From Chryseobacterium sp. KACC 21268 (lineage in GTDB: Bacteria; Bacteroidota; Bacteroidia; Flavobacteriales; Weeksellaceae), in assembly GCA_028736075.1 (NCBI GenBank), contig CP117875.1, positions 3,348,001-3,412,000 of the forward strand: a stretch of 64,000 nucleotides of DNA. Reading direction: 5' to 3'. Of this stretch, positions 2,197-7,213 are shown piece by piece; position 1 is the first letter of the stretch, and every line of letters starts with the position of its first letter. Under the pieces are notes generated by a model. The model worked only from the letters and a program-made list of their open reading frames with translations. It did not search any database and was not told the origin of the DNA. The translations under genes and the position numbers were made by a program.

Positions 2197-3174
2197 ATGA
2201 AAGTATTTGTAAACAAAAGAATTCCGGACAATGGGATTCAGATTTTGAAAGACGGAAATTTAGACATCATTTTCCCTGAAACAGAAAACCCAACCCACGA
2301 AGAATGGCTGGAAAGCTGCCAACAAGCAGACATCATCCTAAGTGTCGGCGGAAAGAACAAATATGACAAAGAATTCTTCGACGCTTGCCCCAATGTAAAA
2401 GCTATTGCCCTATTTTCCGTAGGCTTCGACCAAGTAGATATCGAAGAAGCAACTAAACGAAAAATCGCAGTTGGAAACACGCCAGACGTTTTGAGCCGCG
2501 CCACTTCCGACGTTGCATTTCTACTGATGCAAATGGTTTCCAGAAAAGTAAACTACAACACTGCAAAAGTAAAATCCGGTAACTGGAAAGACTTCGACCC
2601 TTTGGAAGAACTCGGTCAGGAACTTTACGGAAAAACCTTAGGCGTTTTAGGACTAGGAAGAATCGGTTTTGAAATGGCTGAAAAGTGCAAAGCCGCTTTC
2701 GGAATGAACATCATCTACCACAACAGAAGCCACAACGAAGAAGCTGAAAAAGAACTCGACGCAAAATATGTTTCTTTTGACGAATTGGTGGAAAACTCAG
2801 ACATCATAAGTATTCACGCGAATTTCACACCAGAACAAGCTGACCTTTTCAACACATCAGTTTTCGAAAAAATGAAAGAAAATCTGATTTTCATCAACAC
2901 CGCAAGAGGTGGTTTTCATAATGAAAAAGATTTGTTTGAAGCTTTGATTTCAGGAAAAATTTGGGGCGCAGGTCTTGATGTTACCAATCCGGAACCGATG
3001 CAGAAAGACAGTCCGTTATTAGGACTTCCAAACGTTTGTGTCCTTCCGCATATTGGTTCTGCAACTTTGGAAGCCAGAAGCGGAATGGCAAGATTGGCAG
3101 CTGAGAACGTCGTTGCTTTCAGTAAAGGCGAAAAAATGCCTACTTGCGTAAATCCTGAAGTTTACGAAGATTAA
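2197..3174 (+). CDS. NAD(P)-dependent 2-hydroxyacid dehydrogenase (glyoxylate/hydroxypyruvate reductase type)
   Basis: A 325-residue D-isomer-specific 2-hydroxyacid dehydrogenase, probably reducing glyoxylate or hydroxypyruvate. The Rossmann motif GLGRIG is at 152-157. The catalytic triad can be placed as Arg237 (NTARGG), Glu266 (NPEP) and His285 (LPHIGSAT). The N-terminal KRIPDNGIQIL resembles the GhrB/GyaR glyoxylate reductase branch rather than SerA. It is a single gene between a dispersed repeat and the small acidic protein. Substrate is inferred from family resemblance only; a second member of the superfamily (SerA-like) lies at 40660. Confidence 0.85.
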   Translation: MKVFVNKRIPDNGIQILKDGNLDIIFPETENPTHEEWLESCQQADIILSVGGKNKYDKEFFDACPNVKAIALFSVGFDQVDIEEATKRKIAVGNTPDVLSRATSDVAFLLMQMVSRKVNYNTAKVKSGNWKDFDPLEELGQELYGKTLGVLGLGRIGFEMAEKCKAAFGMNIIYHNRSHNEEAEKELDAKYVSFDELVENSDIISIHANFTPEQADLFNTSVFEKMKENLIFINTARGGFHNEKDLFEALISGKIWGAGLDVTNPEPMQKDSPLLGLPNVCVLPHIGSATLEARSGMARLAAENVVAFSKGEKMPTCVNPEVYED

Positions 3175-3253
3175 ATTTCATCAAAATAAATCTTTCAAAA
3201 ACAAAGCTTGGAATCATATTTGTCTATCTTCAATCAACCAAAAAATAAATATT

Positions 3254-3544
3254 ATGACACCAGAAGATAACATCGAAAAAAATTTGGAAGATTTGGATTA
3301 CAATCCAGGTGACGACATTTTCAACAGAGAAGAGCATATTCCCATCGACGGCGATGGAAATCCAATCAGAAATCCAAGTCAGGTGAACGACGAAATGCCA
3401 TTCGGACTAGACGTTCCAGGCGCTGAAGATGATGACAACTTCGACCAGGTAACCAATCAACTTCCGGACGAAGAAAACAATTACTACAGCACGAGCGACA
3501 ATGAAGATGACCACGAAGAAGAAAACGACGACATTGTAGAATAA
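3254..3544 (+). CDS. Small acidic protein of unknown function
   Basis: A 96-residue, strongly acidic protein with many Asp, Glu and Asn, no Cys, and no membrane segment or signal peptide. It looks intrinsically disordered, with a C-terminal run of Asp/Glu. No known domain is recognised. The codon pattern and a strong terminator just after the stop support a real gene. It is expressed singly, 79 bp after the dehydrogenase. Confidence 0.7.
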   Translation: MTPEDNIEKNLEDLDYNPGDDIFNREEHIPIDGDGNPIRNPSQVNDEMPFGLDVPGAEDDDNFDQVTNQLPDEENNYYSTSDNEDDHEEENDDIVE

Positions 3545-3549
3545 ACAAT

Positions 3550-3578
3550 AAAGCTTACCACATAGGTAAGCTTTTATT
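3550..3578. terminator. Bidirectional terminator between convergent genes
   Basis: A 10-bp perfect stem (AAAGCTTACC/GGTAAGCTTT) with loop ACATA, flanked by A/T runs on both sides, serves the acidic-protein gene and the minus-strand thioesterase gene. Confidence 0.85.
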
Positions 3579-3579
3579 T

Positions 3580-3975
3580 TTAGTTCAAATCTCTAAATAT
3601 TCTGGAAGGCTTTTTATTTTCGTCAATCGCTACCAGAGTAAAATCGCCTGAGACAGCCTTTTCGCGCGTATCATTGTACATTTCTTCCACAAAAATCTCC
3701 ACATTCACTTTCACGCTCGTGTTCCCGACGTATTTTATTCGACCAACAAGCTCTACAATCGTATCAGCCGGAATTGGTTTTTTGAAATCAATCCTGTCAC
3801 AACTTACGGTCACAAAAGACTTTCTCGCAAATCGCGTGGCGGTCATAAAAGCCACTTCATCCATCATTTCCATTACCTTCCCACCGAACATCGTGTTATG
3901 ATGATTGGTTGTATTCGGGAAAACCACTTTGAAAACACGCGTTTCCGACTGCTGGATTTTGTCTTCGTAATTCAT
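3580..3975 (-). CDS. Acyl-CoA thioesterase, hotdog fold (YciA-like)
   Basis: A 131-residue single hotdog-domain protein that should hydrolyse acyl-CoA thioesters in the cytoplasm. The active-site region reads NTTNHHNTMFGGKVMEMMDE (about 21-40), matching the YciA/BACH pattern with N-x-x-G-x-x-F-G-G and a following Asp/Glu. The motif FVTVSCDRIDFKKPI follows the usual second strand. Length fits single-hotdog members such as YciA. It is a single gene convergent with the acidic protein. Chain-length preference is unknown. Confidence 0.85.
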   Translation of the reverse strand: MNYEDKIQQSETRVFKVVFPNTTNHHNTMFGGKVMEMMDEVAFMTATRFARKSFVTVSCDRIDFKKPIPADTIVELVGRIKYVGNTSVKVNVEIFVEEMYNDTREKAVSGDFTLVAIDENKKPSRIFRDLN

Positions 3976-4110
3976 TTCTTGATAGCTTTATAATTGTGTA
4001 CTAGAATCGTTTTTTGAAGGTGCAAATATAAGTGATAGAAACTGTTCTAAGAAATTTCATAAATTAGATTCTAATAAATCATCAGTCAAAATCATTCTAA
4101 TGATTTTTCA

Positions 4111-4169
4111 AATTCCCCTCCTCTGGAGGGGCGACTAAAATTCGAAGAATTTTTGACGGGGTGGTCACT
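4111..4169 (+). repeat. Left palindromic unit of the DUF559 module
   Basis: The unit begins AATTCCCCTCC-TCT-GGAGGGG, a 7-bp stem with a 3-base loop, then a second small hairpin AAAATTC-gaa-GAATTTT, then GACGGGGTGGTC. It ends just before the nuclease start codon. The first 21 bp recur as an exact inverted copy at 4706-4726. Confidence 0.85.
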
Positions 4170-4184
4170 CAAAAACACAAACAA

Positions 4185-4601
4185 ATGAATGAAATCCTAA
4201 CTCACATCCACGGAGTTCCCATCCGCAGGAACTTCGTAGAACACCTACCCTACAACCCTCACCTAAAAAAATTATTAAGCGGAAAATGCAAAACCGGAAT
4301 TCTAATCGAAGTTCTTTTCTGGAAGCAAGTTCGAGCAAGAACATTTCATAACATAGATTTTGACAGACAAAAAATTATAGGAAACTATATTGTCGATTTT
4401 TATGTCAAGACTCTTGGATTAATAGTAGAAATCGATGGTTCGAGTCACGATGAGAAAGAAGTTTATGATGGCATCAGACAAACTTATCTGGAATCTTTGA
4501 ATTTGAAAATAGTCAGAATTACTGATTTTGATGTGAAGAATAATTTGGCTTTGGTGATGAAAGAATTGGAGACATTTATTATTGAAAACTACAGATGCTA
4601 A
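4185..4601 (+). CDS. DUF559 domain endonuclease-like protein inside a palindromic-repeat module
   Basis: A 138-residue protein of the DUF559 family, related in fold to Vsr/PD-(D/E)XK nucleases. Core features are FDRQKIIGNYIVDFYV with the Asp, then LIVEIDGSSH with the E-x-D-G and His, then a D-x-x-R-x-x-x-L helix and RITDFDVKNN. The ATG at 4185 is chosen; an in-frame GTG at 4161 would lie inside the repeat unit. The gene is intact and full length. It sits between direct units at 4111-4169 and 4600-4659, and an inverted unit closes the module at 4664-4726. Enzymatic activity and target are unknown. Confidence 0.85.
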   Translation: MNEILTHIHGVPIRRNFVEHLPYNPHLKKLLSGKCKTGILIEVLFWKQVRARTFHNIDFDRQKIIGNYIVDFYVKTLGLIVEIDGSSHDEKEVYDGIRQTYLESLNLKIVRITDFDVKNNLALVMKELETFIIENYRC

Positions 4602-4659
4602 AATTCCCCTCCTCCGGATGGGTGGATTGGACAAAAGGGAGAAGACGGGGTGGTTCGAC
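4600..4659 (+). repeat. Second direct palindromic unit of the DUF559 module
   Basis: A degenerate direct copy of the left unit: AAAATTCCCCTCCTCCGGAT near its start and GACGGGGTGGTT near its end. The nuclease stop codon overlaps its first bases. The first hairpin is weakened by substitutions. Confidence 0.75.
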
Positions 4660-4663
4660 ACAC

Positions 4664-4726
4664 TTGACCACCCCCGAAATCTGAAATTTACAATCTCAAA
4701 TTTCTCCCCTCCAGAGGAGGGGAATT
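4664..4726 (-). repeat. Inverted palindromic unit closing the DUF559 module
   Basis: On the minus strand it reads AATTCCCCTCC-TCT-GGAGGGG, then hairpin GAAATTT/AAATTTC, then CGGGGGTGGTCA. It has the same architecture as the left unit but a different second stem that still pairs. The outer 21 bp are an exact inverted repeat of 4111-4131. Confidence 0.85.
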
Positions 4727-4796
4727 TTTTCTTATTTCATTACTATATATTTTTCAAATTGAATATCTTTAAAACTTTGAAAATCTAGACTTATTT

Positions 4797-5228
4797 ATGA
4801 AAAAAGTTTTTACAAAACATCTGTTTTTCTTATTCCTAACTCCGCTTTTACTATTAATTATATTTTACTTTTTATCAGCAAAAGGAGTCGTAGGAACTTA
4901 TGGTGTCAATAGAACTATAAATTTTGGAGGAATTGATATTGATGGAATTTTGAGAAACCCAATTTATACCGGTTCTTTTTTCCTTTTTACGTATCCAATA
5001 TATCTTTTAAGCTATTTTATTATTTTTCTGATTGGAAGATTTACAGATTTTCTATATTCTATAGTTCATTTCATTACATTTATTTTAAACTACATTTTAC
5101 TTTCTAATAATCCTGAAAATAGAATTCTAATTCCATTAACAATGATCGGTTTTATAATTTTCATTTTAAATATATTTAAAACAACAAAAAATCCATCAAC
5201 TATCAACAAACAACCATCAACGATATAA
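4797..5228 (+). CDS. Small membrane protein of unknown function, overlapping hutU
   Basis: A 143-residue, very AT-rich ORF with three to four hydrophobic segments (about 8-28, 58-80, 86-101 and 111-130). No family is recognised. Its stop overlaps the next start as TAATG, so translation may be coupled to urocanate hydratase. The last codons run through an ATCAAC-rich spacer of the kind often found between genes here (CCATCAACTATCAACAAAC), which suggests the C-terminus extended into a repeat. Base composition is unlike hutU. It may be a recent arrival with the DUF559 module. Confidence 0.55.
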   Translation: MKKVFTKHLFFLFLTPLLLLIIFYFLSAKGVVGTYGVNRTINFGGIDIDGILRNPIYTGSFFLFTYPIYLLSYFIIFLIGRFTDFLYSIVHFITFILNYILLSNNPENRILIPLTMIGFIIFILNIFKTTKNPSTINKQPSTI

Positions 5229-7213
5229 TGACTTTCCAGCAACAAATCAAACAAGGCATTCCCACCGAATTACCTCAGCCAAAACCATACGAAAACCACA
5301 TCAACCACGCACCGAAACGTAAAGAAATCCTGTCAGACGAAGAGAAAAAGCTCGCTCTGAAAAACGCTTTACGTTATTTCGAACCCAAATTCCACGCAGA
5401 ATTGTTGCCGGAATTCAGGGAAGAACTGGAAAAATACGGCAGAATTTATATGTACCGCTTCCGTCCCGATTACGAGATGAAAGCAAGAGATATTGCCGAA
5501 TATCCCGGAAAATCTGAGCAGGCAAAAGCCATTATGCTGATGATTCAGAACAATCTGGATTATGCCGTGGCGCAACATCCGCACGAACTGATTACGTACG
5601 GTGGAAATGGTGCGGTATTCAGCAACTGGGCGCAGTATCTTCTGACGATGAAATATCTGTCGGAAATGACGGACGAACAGACGTTGACGATGTATTCCGG
5701 TCATCCGATGGGATTGTTTCCTTCGCACAAAGATGCGCCGAGAGTGGTGGTAACCAACGGAATGATGATTCCAAATTACTCCAAGCCGGATGACTGGGAA
5801 AAATTCAATGCGCTGGGTGTTTCGCAGTACGGACAAATGACCGCCGGATCTTATATGTACATCGGTCCGCAGGGAATTGTGCACGGAACGACGATTACCG
5901 TTTTAAATGCTTTCAGAAAAATTAATAAAGAACCAAAAGGCGGATTATTCGTCACTTCAGGTTTGGGCGGAATGTCCGGAGCTCAGCCAAAAGCCGGAAA
6001 TATCGCAGGTTGTATTACGGTGATTGCGGAAGTGAATCCAAAGATTACCAAAATACGTCACGAACAGAAATGGGTGAATGAAATCCACGAAAATCTGGAT
6101 GAACTGGTGGCGAGAGTACGAAAAGCTCAGGAAAATCAGGAAACGGTTTCTCTGGCTTACCTTGGAAACATCGTCGATATCTGGGAGAAATTTGATGAAG
6201 AAAATTTAAGAATTGATATTGGTTCAGACCAGACTTCGCTTCACAATCCGTGGGCGGGTGGTTATTATCCGGTTGGTCAAACCTTCGAGGAATCGAATAC
6301 GATGATGGCAGAAAACCCTGAATTATTCAAGGAAAAAGTTCAGGAAACCTTGAGAAGACACGCTTCCGCCATCAATAAACATACTGCGAAAGGAACCTAT
6401 TTCTTCGATTACGGAAATGCCTTTTTACTCGAAGCTTCCAGAGCCGGAGCCGATGTAATGTCAGAAAATCCTACGATTGGAAGGGAGTTCAAATACCCAT
6501 CGTACGTTCAGGATATTATGGGACCGATGTGTTTTGATTATGGTTTCGGGCCGTTCCGTTGGGTTTGTACCAGCGGAAAACCGGAAGATTTGCAGAAAAC
6601 CGATGATATTGCGTGTGCGGTTTTAGAGGAAATGATTAAAACGTCACCGGAAGAAATCCAGCAACAGATGAAAGACAATATTACGTGGATCAAAGGTGCT
6701 CAGGAAAACAATCTGGTCGTTGGTTCGCAGGCGAGGATTCTGTATGCCGATGCAGAAGGAAGAATGAAAATCGCTGAAGCCTTCAACAAAGCCATTGCCA
6801 ACGGAGAAATCGGAGCAGTGGTTTTGGGAAGAGACCATCACGATGTTTCGGGGACGGATTCGCCGTACAGAGAGACTTCCAACATTTATGACGGCTCGAG
6901 ATTTACGGCAGATATGGCGATTCACAATGTGATTGGCGACAGTTTCCGTGGGGCAACTTGGGTGAGCATCCACAACGGTGGTGGCGTTGGCTGGGGCGAA
7001 GTGATCAACGGTGGTTTCGGGATGTTGCTCGATGGAAGCGATGATGCCGACAGAAGATTAAAATCTATGCTGTTCTGGGACGTGAACAACGGAATTTCGA
7101 GACGAAGCTGGGCAAGAAATGAAGGTGCTGTTTTCGCAATTAAACGTGCGATGGAAGCTGAGCCAAATTTGAAAGTGACGTTGCCGAATTTTGTGGATGA
7201 GAGTTTGTTTTAA
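5228..7213 (+). CDS. hutU: Urocanate hydratase (urocanase)
   Basis: A 661-residue cytoplasmic enzyme that converts urocanate to imidazolonepropionate in histidine breakdown, using NAD+ as electrophile. Diagnostic motifs are YGGNGAVFSNW (124 on), GLGGMSGAQPKAG (246 on), WAGGYYPVG, Cys447 in FRWVCTSGK, and GGGVGWGEVINGG near the end. It is longer than the roughly 550-residue proteobacterial enzyme, resembling the long form. No hutH, hutI or hutG lies in the window, so the rest of the pathway is elsewhere. The start overlaps the upstream stop (TAATG). Confidence 0.96.
   Translation: MTFQQQIKQGIPTELPQPKPYENHINHAPKRKEILSDEEKKLALKNALRYFEPKFHAELLPEFREELEKYGRIYMYRFRPDYEMKARDIAEYPGKSEQAKAIMLMIQNNLDYAVAQHPHELITYGGNGAVFSNWAQYLLTMKYLSEMTDEQTLTMYSGHPMGLFPSHKDAPRVVVTNGMMIPNYSKPDDWEKFNALGVSQYGQMTAGSYMYIGPQGIVHGTTITVLNAFRKINKEPKGGLFVTSGLGGMSGAQPKAGNIAGCITVIAEVNPKITKIRHEQKWVNEIHENLDELVARVRKAQENQETVSLAYLGNIVDIWEKFDEENLRIDIGSDQTSLHNPWAGGYYPVGQTFEESNTMMAENPELFKEKVQETLRRHASAINKHTAKGTYFFDYGNAFLLEASRAGADVMSENPTIGREFKYPSYVQDIMGPMCFDYGFGPFRWVCTSGKPEDLQKTDDIACAVLEEMIKTSPEEIQQQMKDNITWIKGAQENNLVVGSQARILYADAEGRMKIAEAFNKAIANGEIGAVVLGRDHHDVSGTDSPYRETSNIYDGSRFTADMAIHNVIGDSFRGATWVSIHNGGGVGWGEVINGGFGMLLDGSDDADRRLKSMLFWDVNNGISRRSWARNEGAVFAIKRAMEAEPNLKVTLPNFVDESLF

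Follow-up and report, generated by a model that had tools for sequence, protein, structure and literature searches.

A DUF559 nuclease gene bracketed by triplex-type DNA units in Chryseobacterium: a candidate REPtron-like mobile element

In Chryseobacterium sp. KACC 21268, a small gene for a nuclease of the DUF559 family stands between GC-rich palindromic units, which raises the question whether gene and units together form a mobile element. The locus lies in a stretch of 64,000 nucleotides (contig CP117875.1, positions 3,348,001 to 3,412,000), called the window here. The original prediction compared the arrangement to a REPtron, with DUF559 in place of the RAYT protein. With moderate confidence, we regard the locus as one copy of a widespread REPtron-like mobile element, in which the Vsr-like PD-(D/E)XK-type nuclease DUF559 is carried between units acting as the ends of the element. 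Statements on papers cited by PMC number refer to the available parts of these papers.

Table 1. Positions of the nuclease gene, the units and the flanking direct repeat in the window.
Feature	Positions	Strand	Description
Unit 1	4111-4165	+	AATT tag 4111-4114; hairpin CCCCTCC-TCT-GGAGGGG 4115-4131
Unit 1, spacer and tail		+	Spacer of 26 nt with AT-rich second hairpin; mirror tail GGGGTGG 4158-4164
DUF559 (PF04480) gene	4185-4601	+	138 aa, Vsr-like PD-(D/E)XK-type nuclease
Unit 2	4602-4654	+	AATT, imperfect hairpin CCCCTCC-TCC-GGATGGG, tail GGGGTGG; begins directly after the DUF559 stop codon
Unit 3	4667-4726	-	AATT, hairpin CCCCTCC-TCT-GGAGGGG, spacer with second hairpin, mirror tail GGGGTGG
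12-bp direct repeat ATTTTTCAAATT, left copy	4103-4114	+	Overlaps the start of unit 1; two-copy family D6
12-bp direct repeat ATTTTTCAAATT, right copy	4749-4760	+	Family D6

The exact 21-bp inverted repeat noted in the original prediction could be confirmed: AATTCCCCTCCTCTGGAGGGG is present at 4111-4131 (+) and 4706-4726 (-), a further copy at 4602-4622 (+) differs from it by 2 mismatches, and the repeat was absent from 100 dinucleotide shuffles (0 expected by chance). Equally, the full DUF559 reading frame does match PF04480 and lies between direct units, with an inverted unit closing the segment (units +, + and -); units 2 and 3 form an inverted pair, tail to tail. The palindromes are thus real, but the unit extends further than they do and comprises hairpin, spacer and tail. 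That the unit is a triplex design is the most informative part and was missed in the original prediction. The tail GACGGGGTGGT occurs at 4155-4165 and 4644-4654, downstream of hairpin and spacer, and ACCACCCCC at 4667-4675 is the tail of unit 3 on the opposite strand. For a systematic search we used a strict scanner, which demands a stem of at least 7, a 7-nt purine window and an exact mirror tail within 45 nt, and which contains no lineage information. It found two units in the 64-kb window, at 4115-4164 (+) and 4668-4723 (-), the imperfect middle unit not being counted, and none in six dinucleotide-shuffled windows. The 12-bp direct repeat around the element is a possible target duplication; a stretch similar to ATTTTTCAAATT (TTTTCAAATTGAATATC, TCTTCAAATTGAATATC) occurs once only in the empty sites of the two related genomes G021 and G003. 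Neighbours of the nuclease gene, named from their translations, are a thioesterase-like gene at 3580-3975 (-) and hutU at 5228-7213 (+). Between the element and hutU there is a 143-aa open reading frame (4797-5228, +) without Pfam match, and in genome G010, which has no upstream element, a sequence related to it by eye precedes hutU. A known RNA was rejected, as no Rfam match above gathering was obtained at the locus. Unit 3 (4666-4725, -) gave a weak, full-length match to whalefall-1 RNA (22.5 bits vs gathering 37, E=0.0031), and whalefall-1 may be partly made of such DNA units.

By its general plan, a unit opens with an AATT tag (found in 33 of the 37 distinct units in the genus loci examined), continues with a hairpin CCCCTCC-NNN-GGAGGGG and a spacer that varies and often contains a second hairpin, and closes with a tail GGGGTGG. 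Reversed, this tail equals the purine arm of the hairpin with T opposite A; the mirror holds in units 1 and 3, unit 2 being imperfect. Antiparallel purine-motif triplexes pair according to the rule G·G:C, A·A:T and T·A:T. Because the tail mirrors the purine arm as this rule demands, we read the unit as the design of a purine-motif intrastrand triplex, the same pairing as in the motif that Holder et al. (2015; PMC4666352) call class II. For a covariation test we selected, irrespective of their tails, GC-rich hairpins whose 3' arm is purine and which lie no more than 500 bp from a DUF559 domain; this gave 146 hairpins from 60 of 69 loci in 45 Bacteroidota genomes. Of these hairpins, 112 have a perfect mirror tail of 8 nt no more than 50 nt away to either side, compared to a mean of 12.3 and a maximum of 20 when tails were swapped between genomes (200 repeats). 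Direct copies of the arm occurred near 43 of the 146 hairpins (swapped mean 12.0, maximum 23) and its reverse complement near 15 (swapped mean 3.3, maximum 8), an excess which is probably due to units in pairs and arrays. When one hairpin per genome was taken, the mirror was present in 33-35 of 45 and the direct copy in 11-13 of 45. Since the mirror is kept though the arms differ among lineages (GGAGGGG, GGAGAGGG, GGGGAGGG, GGAGAAGG and others), tails co-vary with arms. The tail base opposite A is A in 149 and T in 133 cases, i.e. about equally often, each hairpin being counted on both strands. A G-quadruplex as the sole constraint was rejected, because it would not require mirrored A positions, yet these are mirrored.

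Motifs of this kind are already known. Holder et al. (2015; PMC4666352) described intrastrand triplex motifs, formerly named PIT elements, and listed 23 of them as TM_ECO; such motifs are numerous in bacteria, E. coli K-12 among them, and have been linked to genome instability, with their origin left open. Formation of the TM_ECO triplex was demonstrated in vitro by CD and NMR, and an in vivo footprint in E. coli did not show it (PMC4666352). Our units share with the TM_ECO/PIT motifs the pyrimidine arm, the purine arm and the G-rich third strand antiparallel to the purine arm, as well as the occurrence as solo copies and inverted pairs in intergenic regions of many bacteria. They differ in the second loop, for which the ITxF search of that study allowed 1-6 nt, whereas units 1 and 3 have spacers of 26 and about 30 nt with a hairpin of their own; short second loops do exist in units of other lineages. 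Moreover, according to Holder et al., mobility activities were never found near TM_ECO sites, whereas the window units bracket a nuclease gene. The main text of PMC4666352 mentions neither nuclease nor homing nor ycj, nor any Vsr- or DUF- word, and the available literature on YcjD and DUF559 (PMC1189080, PMC12817139) gave no link to triplex motifs. Nor was a DUF559-triplex link found elsewhere in the literature searched, which mostly did not cover subscription papers and preprints and leaves priority uncertain.

The DUF559 gene of E. coli is ycjD, whose product belongs to the same Pfam family as the window protein and other DUF559 proteins (PDB 3hrl), and ycjD also adjoins a motif of the TM_ECO type: in K-12 MG1655, CCCCTCGCCCCTCTGGGGAGAGGGTTAGGGTGAGGGG with loop TTA lies 166 bp downstream of the gene, and an apparent decayed motif overlaps the ycjD end. 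Of 5426 E. coli genomes, 3361 contain 80% or more of a 1-kb query covering ycjD. The species was discarded for the comparison with clean empty sites: in two records that lack ycjD, sapF is followed by efflux genes (cf. PMC12817139), and the site is thus more than simply empty.

The window protein itself matches PF04480 with E=2.3e-22 and 79.4 bits (gathering 20.6) over profile positions 18-106 of 109. Invariant between it and 12 diverse DUF559 proteins are E27, F44, Q47, D56, F57, E67, G70, H73, D82, R85 and R98 (numbering of the first sequence), and it contains the conserved motifs E, FxRQ, DF, ExDGxxH and DxxR, whose residues we take to be of catalytic type. A broad DUF559 profile recognised PDB 3hrl at 6.7e-34 and, at 4.3e-6, also 3r3p, titled 'Mobile intron protein' and presumably I-Bth0305I; the profile of the window subfamily matched 3hrl at 1.5e-15 and did not match 3r3p. 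To our knowledge, no general role has been established for DUF559. Its kinship to Vsr and to EDxHD homing endonucleases is already in print (PMC1189080; PMC9403480), including the detection of Vsr by a YcjD profile at 1e-5 (PMC1189080). With a pLDDT of 51, and based on close homologues only, the structure that AlphaFold predicted for the window protein was too poor for use. Affiliation to a defence system was rejected, the only PADLOC match being a weak one to mREase_II, and so was a phage origin, with only two distant matches among 50,697 records. Elsewhere in the same genome, a weak DUF559 match at C1:3025779-3026162 has a PF03852 match in the adjoining stretch, with the same strand and frame length, and looks like the terminal part of a Vsr gene; the genome then has Vsr and two stand-alone DUF559 genes.

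How general is the neighbourhood of nuclease and units? DUF559 was detected in 138 of 247 sampled Bacteroidota genomes. From a longer match list, 69 loci were used, namely 29 auto-chosen best matches and 40 selected by E-value with large frames skipped, and 56 of the 69 are stand-alone genes. A strict unit within 500 bp was present at 48 of the 56 stand-alone loci, on both sides at 28; it must be mentioned that the scanner was designed after inspecting the flanks of the first 40 of the 56 loci, which makes these counts partly post hoc. Near these loci there were 130 units in 54.7 kb (up to 500 bp), seven of them overlapping the DUF559 open frame, vs 2 in 82.4 kb further out. The auto-chosen loci had a unit in 26 of 29 cases, with 85 units in 29 kb near and 17 in 55.8 kb further out. 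For two control nucleases, with the 30 best loci each in the same 247 genomes, the corresponding figures were 0/30 (Vsr) and 1/30 (YraN). Two further sets of loci are separate from the scanner design, and the covariation test picks hairpins without a tail rule. A second scan of genome contigs with a Sphingomonas DUF559 query, yielding mostly Pseudomonadota, found a unit at 47 of 59 loci, on both sides at 30, with 122 units in 56.6 kb near vs 9 in 164 kb far. At the remaining 12 loci, four of them with clipped flanks, no strict unit was found within 500 bp; they belong to Myxococcota/Polyangiaceae (six, all that were returned), a delta-proteobacterium, Oscillospiraceae, Phycisphaerales, Rhodospirillales and two Enterobacter. 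In the plasmid collection, 16 loci were fetched from 43 matching records of Cyanobacteriota, Deinococcota, alpha- and gamma-proteobacteria; 12 had a unit, and the other four showed imperfect or T-containing units by eye. Here, 28 units in 16 kb near vs 13 in 52 kb far were counted, 10 of the latter 13 in one Photobacterium array. The association is hence observed directly in several phyla: in all three samples, DUF559 was not mostly unit-free, and the units were not indifferent to it.

Plasmid pGJ3-1 of Photobacterium sp. GJ3 has units of two types in one long array after its DUF559 gene (2357-3939 of locus L147), and another DUF559 gene (L081, G176:C18:44094) has no strict units and stands amid imperfect repeats of about 140 bp on both sides. 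An orientation rule with units pointing towards the gene, which many genus loci fit, was rejected at the phylum level (up+ 36, up- 27, dn- 30, dn+ 30).

Thirteen of the 29 auto-chosen loci have DUF559 inside an open frame of at least 230 aa, and 12 of these 13 have a strict unit within 500 bp; this proportion refers to the auto-chosen loci only, as the other 40 had been selected to avoid large frames. Units in such long frames are often translated as proline- and glycine-rich peptides. A Pfam scan of eight fusions gave host domains in all eight, on both sides of DUF559 in seven (two leucyl-tRNA synthetases, two B12-dependent methionine synthases MetH, HsdR, a UvrD-type helicase and a type ISP enzyme) and on one side only in an HsdM fusion; some of the remaining long frames, in GC-rich DNA, are perhaps not genuine fusions. 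In leucyl-tRNA synthetase (LeuRS), 30 loci were examined after searching 60 genomes. DUF559 was in frame in three of them, one with a strict unit and two with units by eye, and was absent from the loop in 27, none of which had a strict unit. The same loop, which takes up DUF559 in three genera, holds other short inserts in other genera (L183, L187, L194, L200 and others), e.g. VIASEAKQSH, HAELVEAPQ or RHSELVSESH, some of which look like translated repeats; small mobile DNA possibly has an insertion hotspot in this loop of an essential gene.

At a score of at least 20, 10 of 114 loci are flanked by direct repeats (26 to about 200 bp), where 0.03 are expected, unit arrays included. Four of the strong cases (L106, L114, L119 and L094) include unit sequence, two (L081 and L114) are arrays, and a single hutU site accounts for three of the entries; the cleanest repeats are those of L085 (133 bp) and L093 (26 bp). 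A clean universal target-site duplication was not found among the 114 loci. We take the flanking repeats as a lead towards staggered cutting or break repair.

Within the genus, 73 full units were found in 17 of 23 genomes, and none with the reversed pattern. The genome of the window strain alone has eight exact palindromes vs 0 for the reversed control, six of the eight away from the DUF559 gene. The 25 DUF559 matches of the genus comprise 13 'B' genes, five 'A' genes and seven fragments or large proteins. All 13 'B' genes have at least one unit in the locus (looser scanner), all five 'A' genes lack a unit within 500 bp, and one of the seven others (L012) has a unit about 350 bp away. The 'A' genes (L009, L013-L016; at C1:99418 in the own genome, and relatives) share the conserved N-terminus TTNYD.G.WKGAP.SSF. 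This subfamily has possibly arisen as a domesticated copy.

The 'B' genes sit at two places, upstream and downstream of hutU. Among 24 upstream loci surveyed in 23 genomes, nine have DUF559, nine lack it with synteny established by the thioesterase neighbour, and six lack it with the neighbour not in view. Filled and empty sites, for which the original prediction had proposed to look in relatives, do therefore both exist (9 vs 9 upstream of hutU; 3 vs 27 in LeuRS), and this insertion polymorphism, like the in-frame insertions, is seen directly in the genomes. The empty hutU sites of G021 and G003 are intergenic regions of 135-136 bp with no trace of the element and no strict unit; G018 has a single degraded palindrome and no gene, and G007 a solo unit, again with no gene there. 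Downstream of hutU, a second, more diverged element is present in G007, G009, G010 and G022, and in three of these four genomes the hutU end is partly duplicated beyond it. A solo unit elsewhere is present in six and absent in four of 10 alignable genomes, the copy in G021 being diverged. Generally, units elsewhere are more numerous in the 13 genomes with unit-flanked DUF559 (mean 3.1) than in the 10 without (0.8; p=0.0024, kinship ignored), and G003 has five units and no DUF559 match. No recent movement of the element was seen within the genus, where DUF559 at the hutU sites is probably mostly inherited. Purifying selection acts on the nuclease upstream of hutU, with dN/dS of 0.034-0.144 in 15 pairs from six full-length orthologues, leaving out G020 (111 aa, shorter frame), G013 (96 aa, contig edge) and G015 (89 aa).

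Because an enzyme gene lies between units and because orphan units, polymorphic sites and intragenic copies exist, we favour the REPtron-like reading. It shares with the REPtron (PMC3733652) the enzyme gene between its own palindromes, orphan units, inverted dimers and insertions inside genes, and differs in having a PD-(D/E)XK-type nuclease, an AATT tag and a mirror third strand instead of the RAYT tyrosine HUH enzyme and the GTAG tag. The larger number of units elsewhere in genomes with unit-flanked DUF559 and the 3r3p match of the broad profile were counted in its favour. We counted against it the missing universal target-site duplication, the lack of recent movement in the genus, the unit-free DUF559 loci ('A' genes, 12 of 59 in the second scan), the units of G003 without DUF559, the solo unit of G007, the units further out in the auto-chosen set, the missing phylum-wide orientation rule, direct and reverse-complement arm copies above chance, the subfamily profile without 3r3p match and the E. 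coli footprint. On balance, the proposal of a REPtron-like module with DUF559 in place of RAYT is supported by association, controls and filled and empty sites; its limits are that inside the genus the gene is probably mostly inherited and that the 'A' subfamily has no units within 500 bp.

Palindromic repeats inserted in genes are also known from Rickettsia, as the Rickettsia palindromic elements (RPE). Like these and the CGTC repeats (for the latter, PMC3733652), our units are palindromic repeats in genes and belong to a repeat class without known enzyme. The CGTC repeats differ, as their stems begin with AT, most tails fit CCA, and no mirror tail is described in the available text (PMC3733652).

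For triplex folding in the cell, recognition by the nuclease and the chemistry of movement, we infer the following course as the most likely one. When single-stranded, a unit would fold into a purine-motif intrastrand triplex, in which the purine arm of the GC-rich hairpin binds the G-rich tail as third strand. The DUF559 nuclease would recognise the folded unit, either during replication or as an extruded structure, and would nick or cut at the unit edge and at the target. Through repair, the gene with its flanking units could then be copied or joined into the new site, at times with a duplication of target DNA. The solo and paired units at other places of the genome would be non-autonomous copies, related to the element as REPs are to RAYTs.

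Among the other explanations, homing fares best, though we think it rather unlikely. Here the units would have spread by another route and would be the cut site of DUF559 as a free-standing homing endonuclease, whose gene is copied into unit clusters by break repair without the whole element transposing. The Vsr/EDxHD kinship fits this, and in Thermosynechococcus a DUF559-containing gene is placed in the EDxHD homing endonuclease family, in the intein section of PMC9403480. Compared with EDxHD enzymes such as I-Bth0305I (PMC3943268, PMC9403480), the Vsr-like catalytic family and the self-propagating gene are the same, whereas in our case no intron or intein was seen, repeats flank the gene, and the close subfamily profile does not match 3r3p. 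DUF559 genes inside unit pairs or arrays, long direct duplications around some genes, as after break repair, and the gene-less degraded palindrome in G018 and solo unit in G007 upstream of hutU would suit homing as well. However, the empty hutU sites of G021 and G003 and the 27 empty LeuRS sites have no strict unit either, so that gene and units appear to have come or gone as one.

Less probable still is a host function, with DUF559 as a structure-specific repair nuclease processing triplex-prone repeats, the units as regulatory or protective sequences, and neither of them selfish. The purifying selection on the nuclease agrees with this, one genus subfamily without close units may be domesticated, and in Caulobacter lacking the methyltransferase ScmA the DNA damage response depends on VsrA, a DUF559 protein (PMC12907096). 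Nevertheless, a housekeeping repair gene would not be expected to occupy scattered sites, to show insertion polymorphism or to be inserted in frame into unrelated genes.

That the units are terminators or insertion hotspots and DUF559 a passenger is strongly disfavoured by the controls: a hairpin followed by a T-run gives one strand a terminator-like look, but Vsr and YraN in the same genome sample were almost free of units compared with 26 of 29 DUF559 loci, the contrast between near and far DNA is steep (130 vs 2 units), and the mirror tail has no terminator role. Least credible of all are ordinary REPs moved by a RAYT or another HUH transposase encoded elsewhere, since the one Y1_Tnp gene of the own genome sits in a 3.3-kb locus without strict unit or such palindrome and the 5' tag of the genus units is AATT and not GTAG, so that RAYT involvement was rejected.

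Triplex motifs and the kinship of DUF559 with Vsr and EDxHD enzymes are known; the enzyme gene bracketed by triplex units is what is added here. The REPtron-like reading leads to a broader proposal, which we hold as evenly balanced: DUF559 and triplex units may form a separate class of mobile DNA in Bacteroidota, Pseudomonadota, Cyanobacteriota, Deinococcota and others, with the nuclease as sole enzyme and a three-stranded fold as end signal, and the orphan PIT/TM motifs in E. coli and numerous other genomes, whose source is missing, may come from it. The pairing of DUF559 with units at scattered sites in many bacterial groups, also inside genes, points to overlooked mobile DNA, and the mobile-element reading may explain the origin of orphan triplex repeats. 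As ycjD and a TM_ECO-type motif stand side by side in E. coli K-12, the link is directly testable there. It would give the nuclease family and the triplex motif each a testable function, and it suggests a DNA end signal based on triplex folding.
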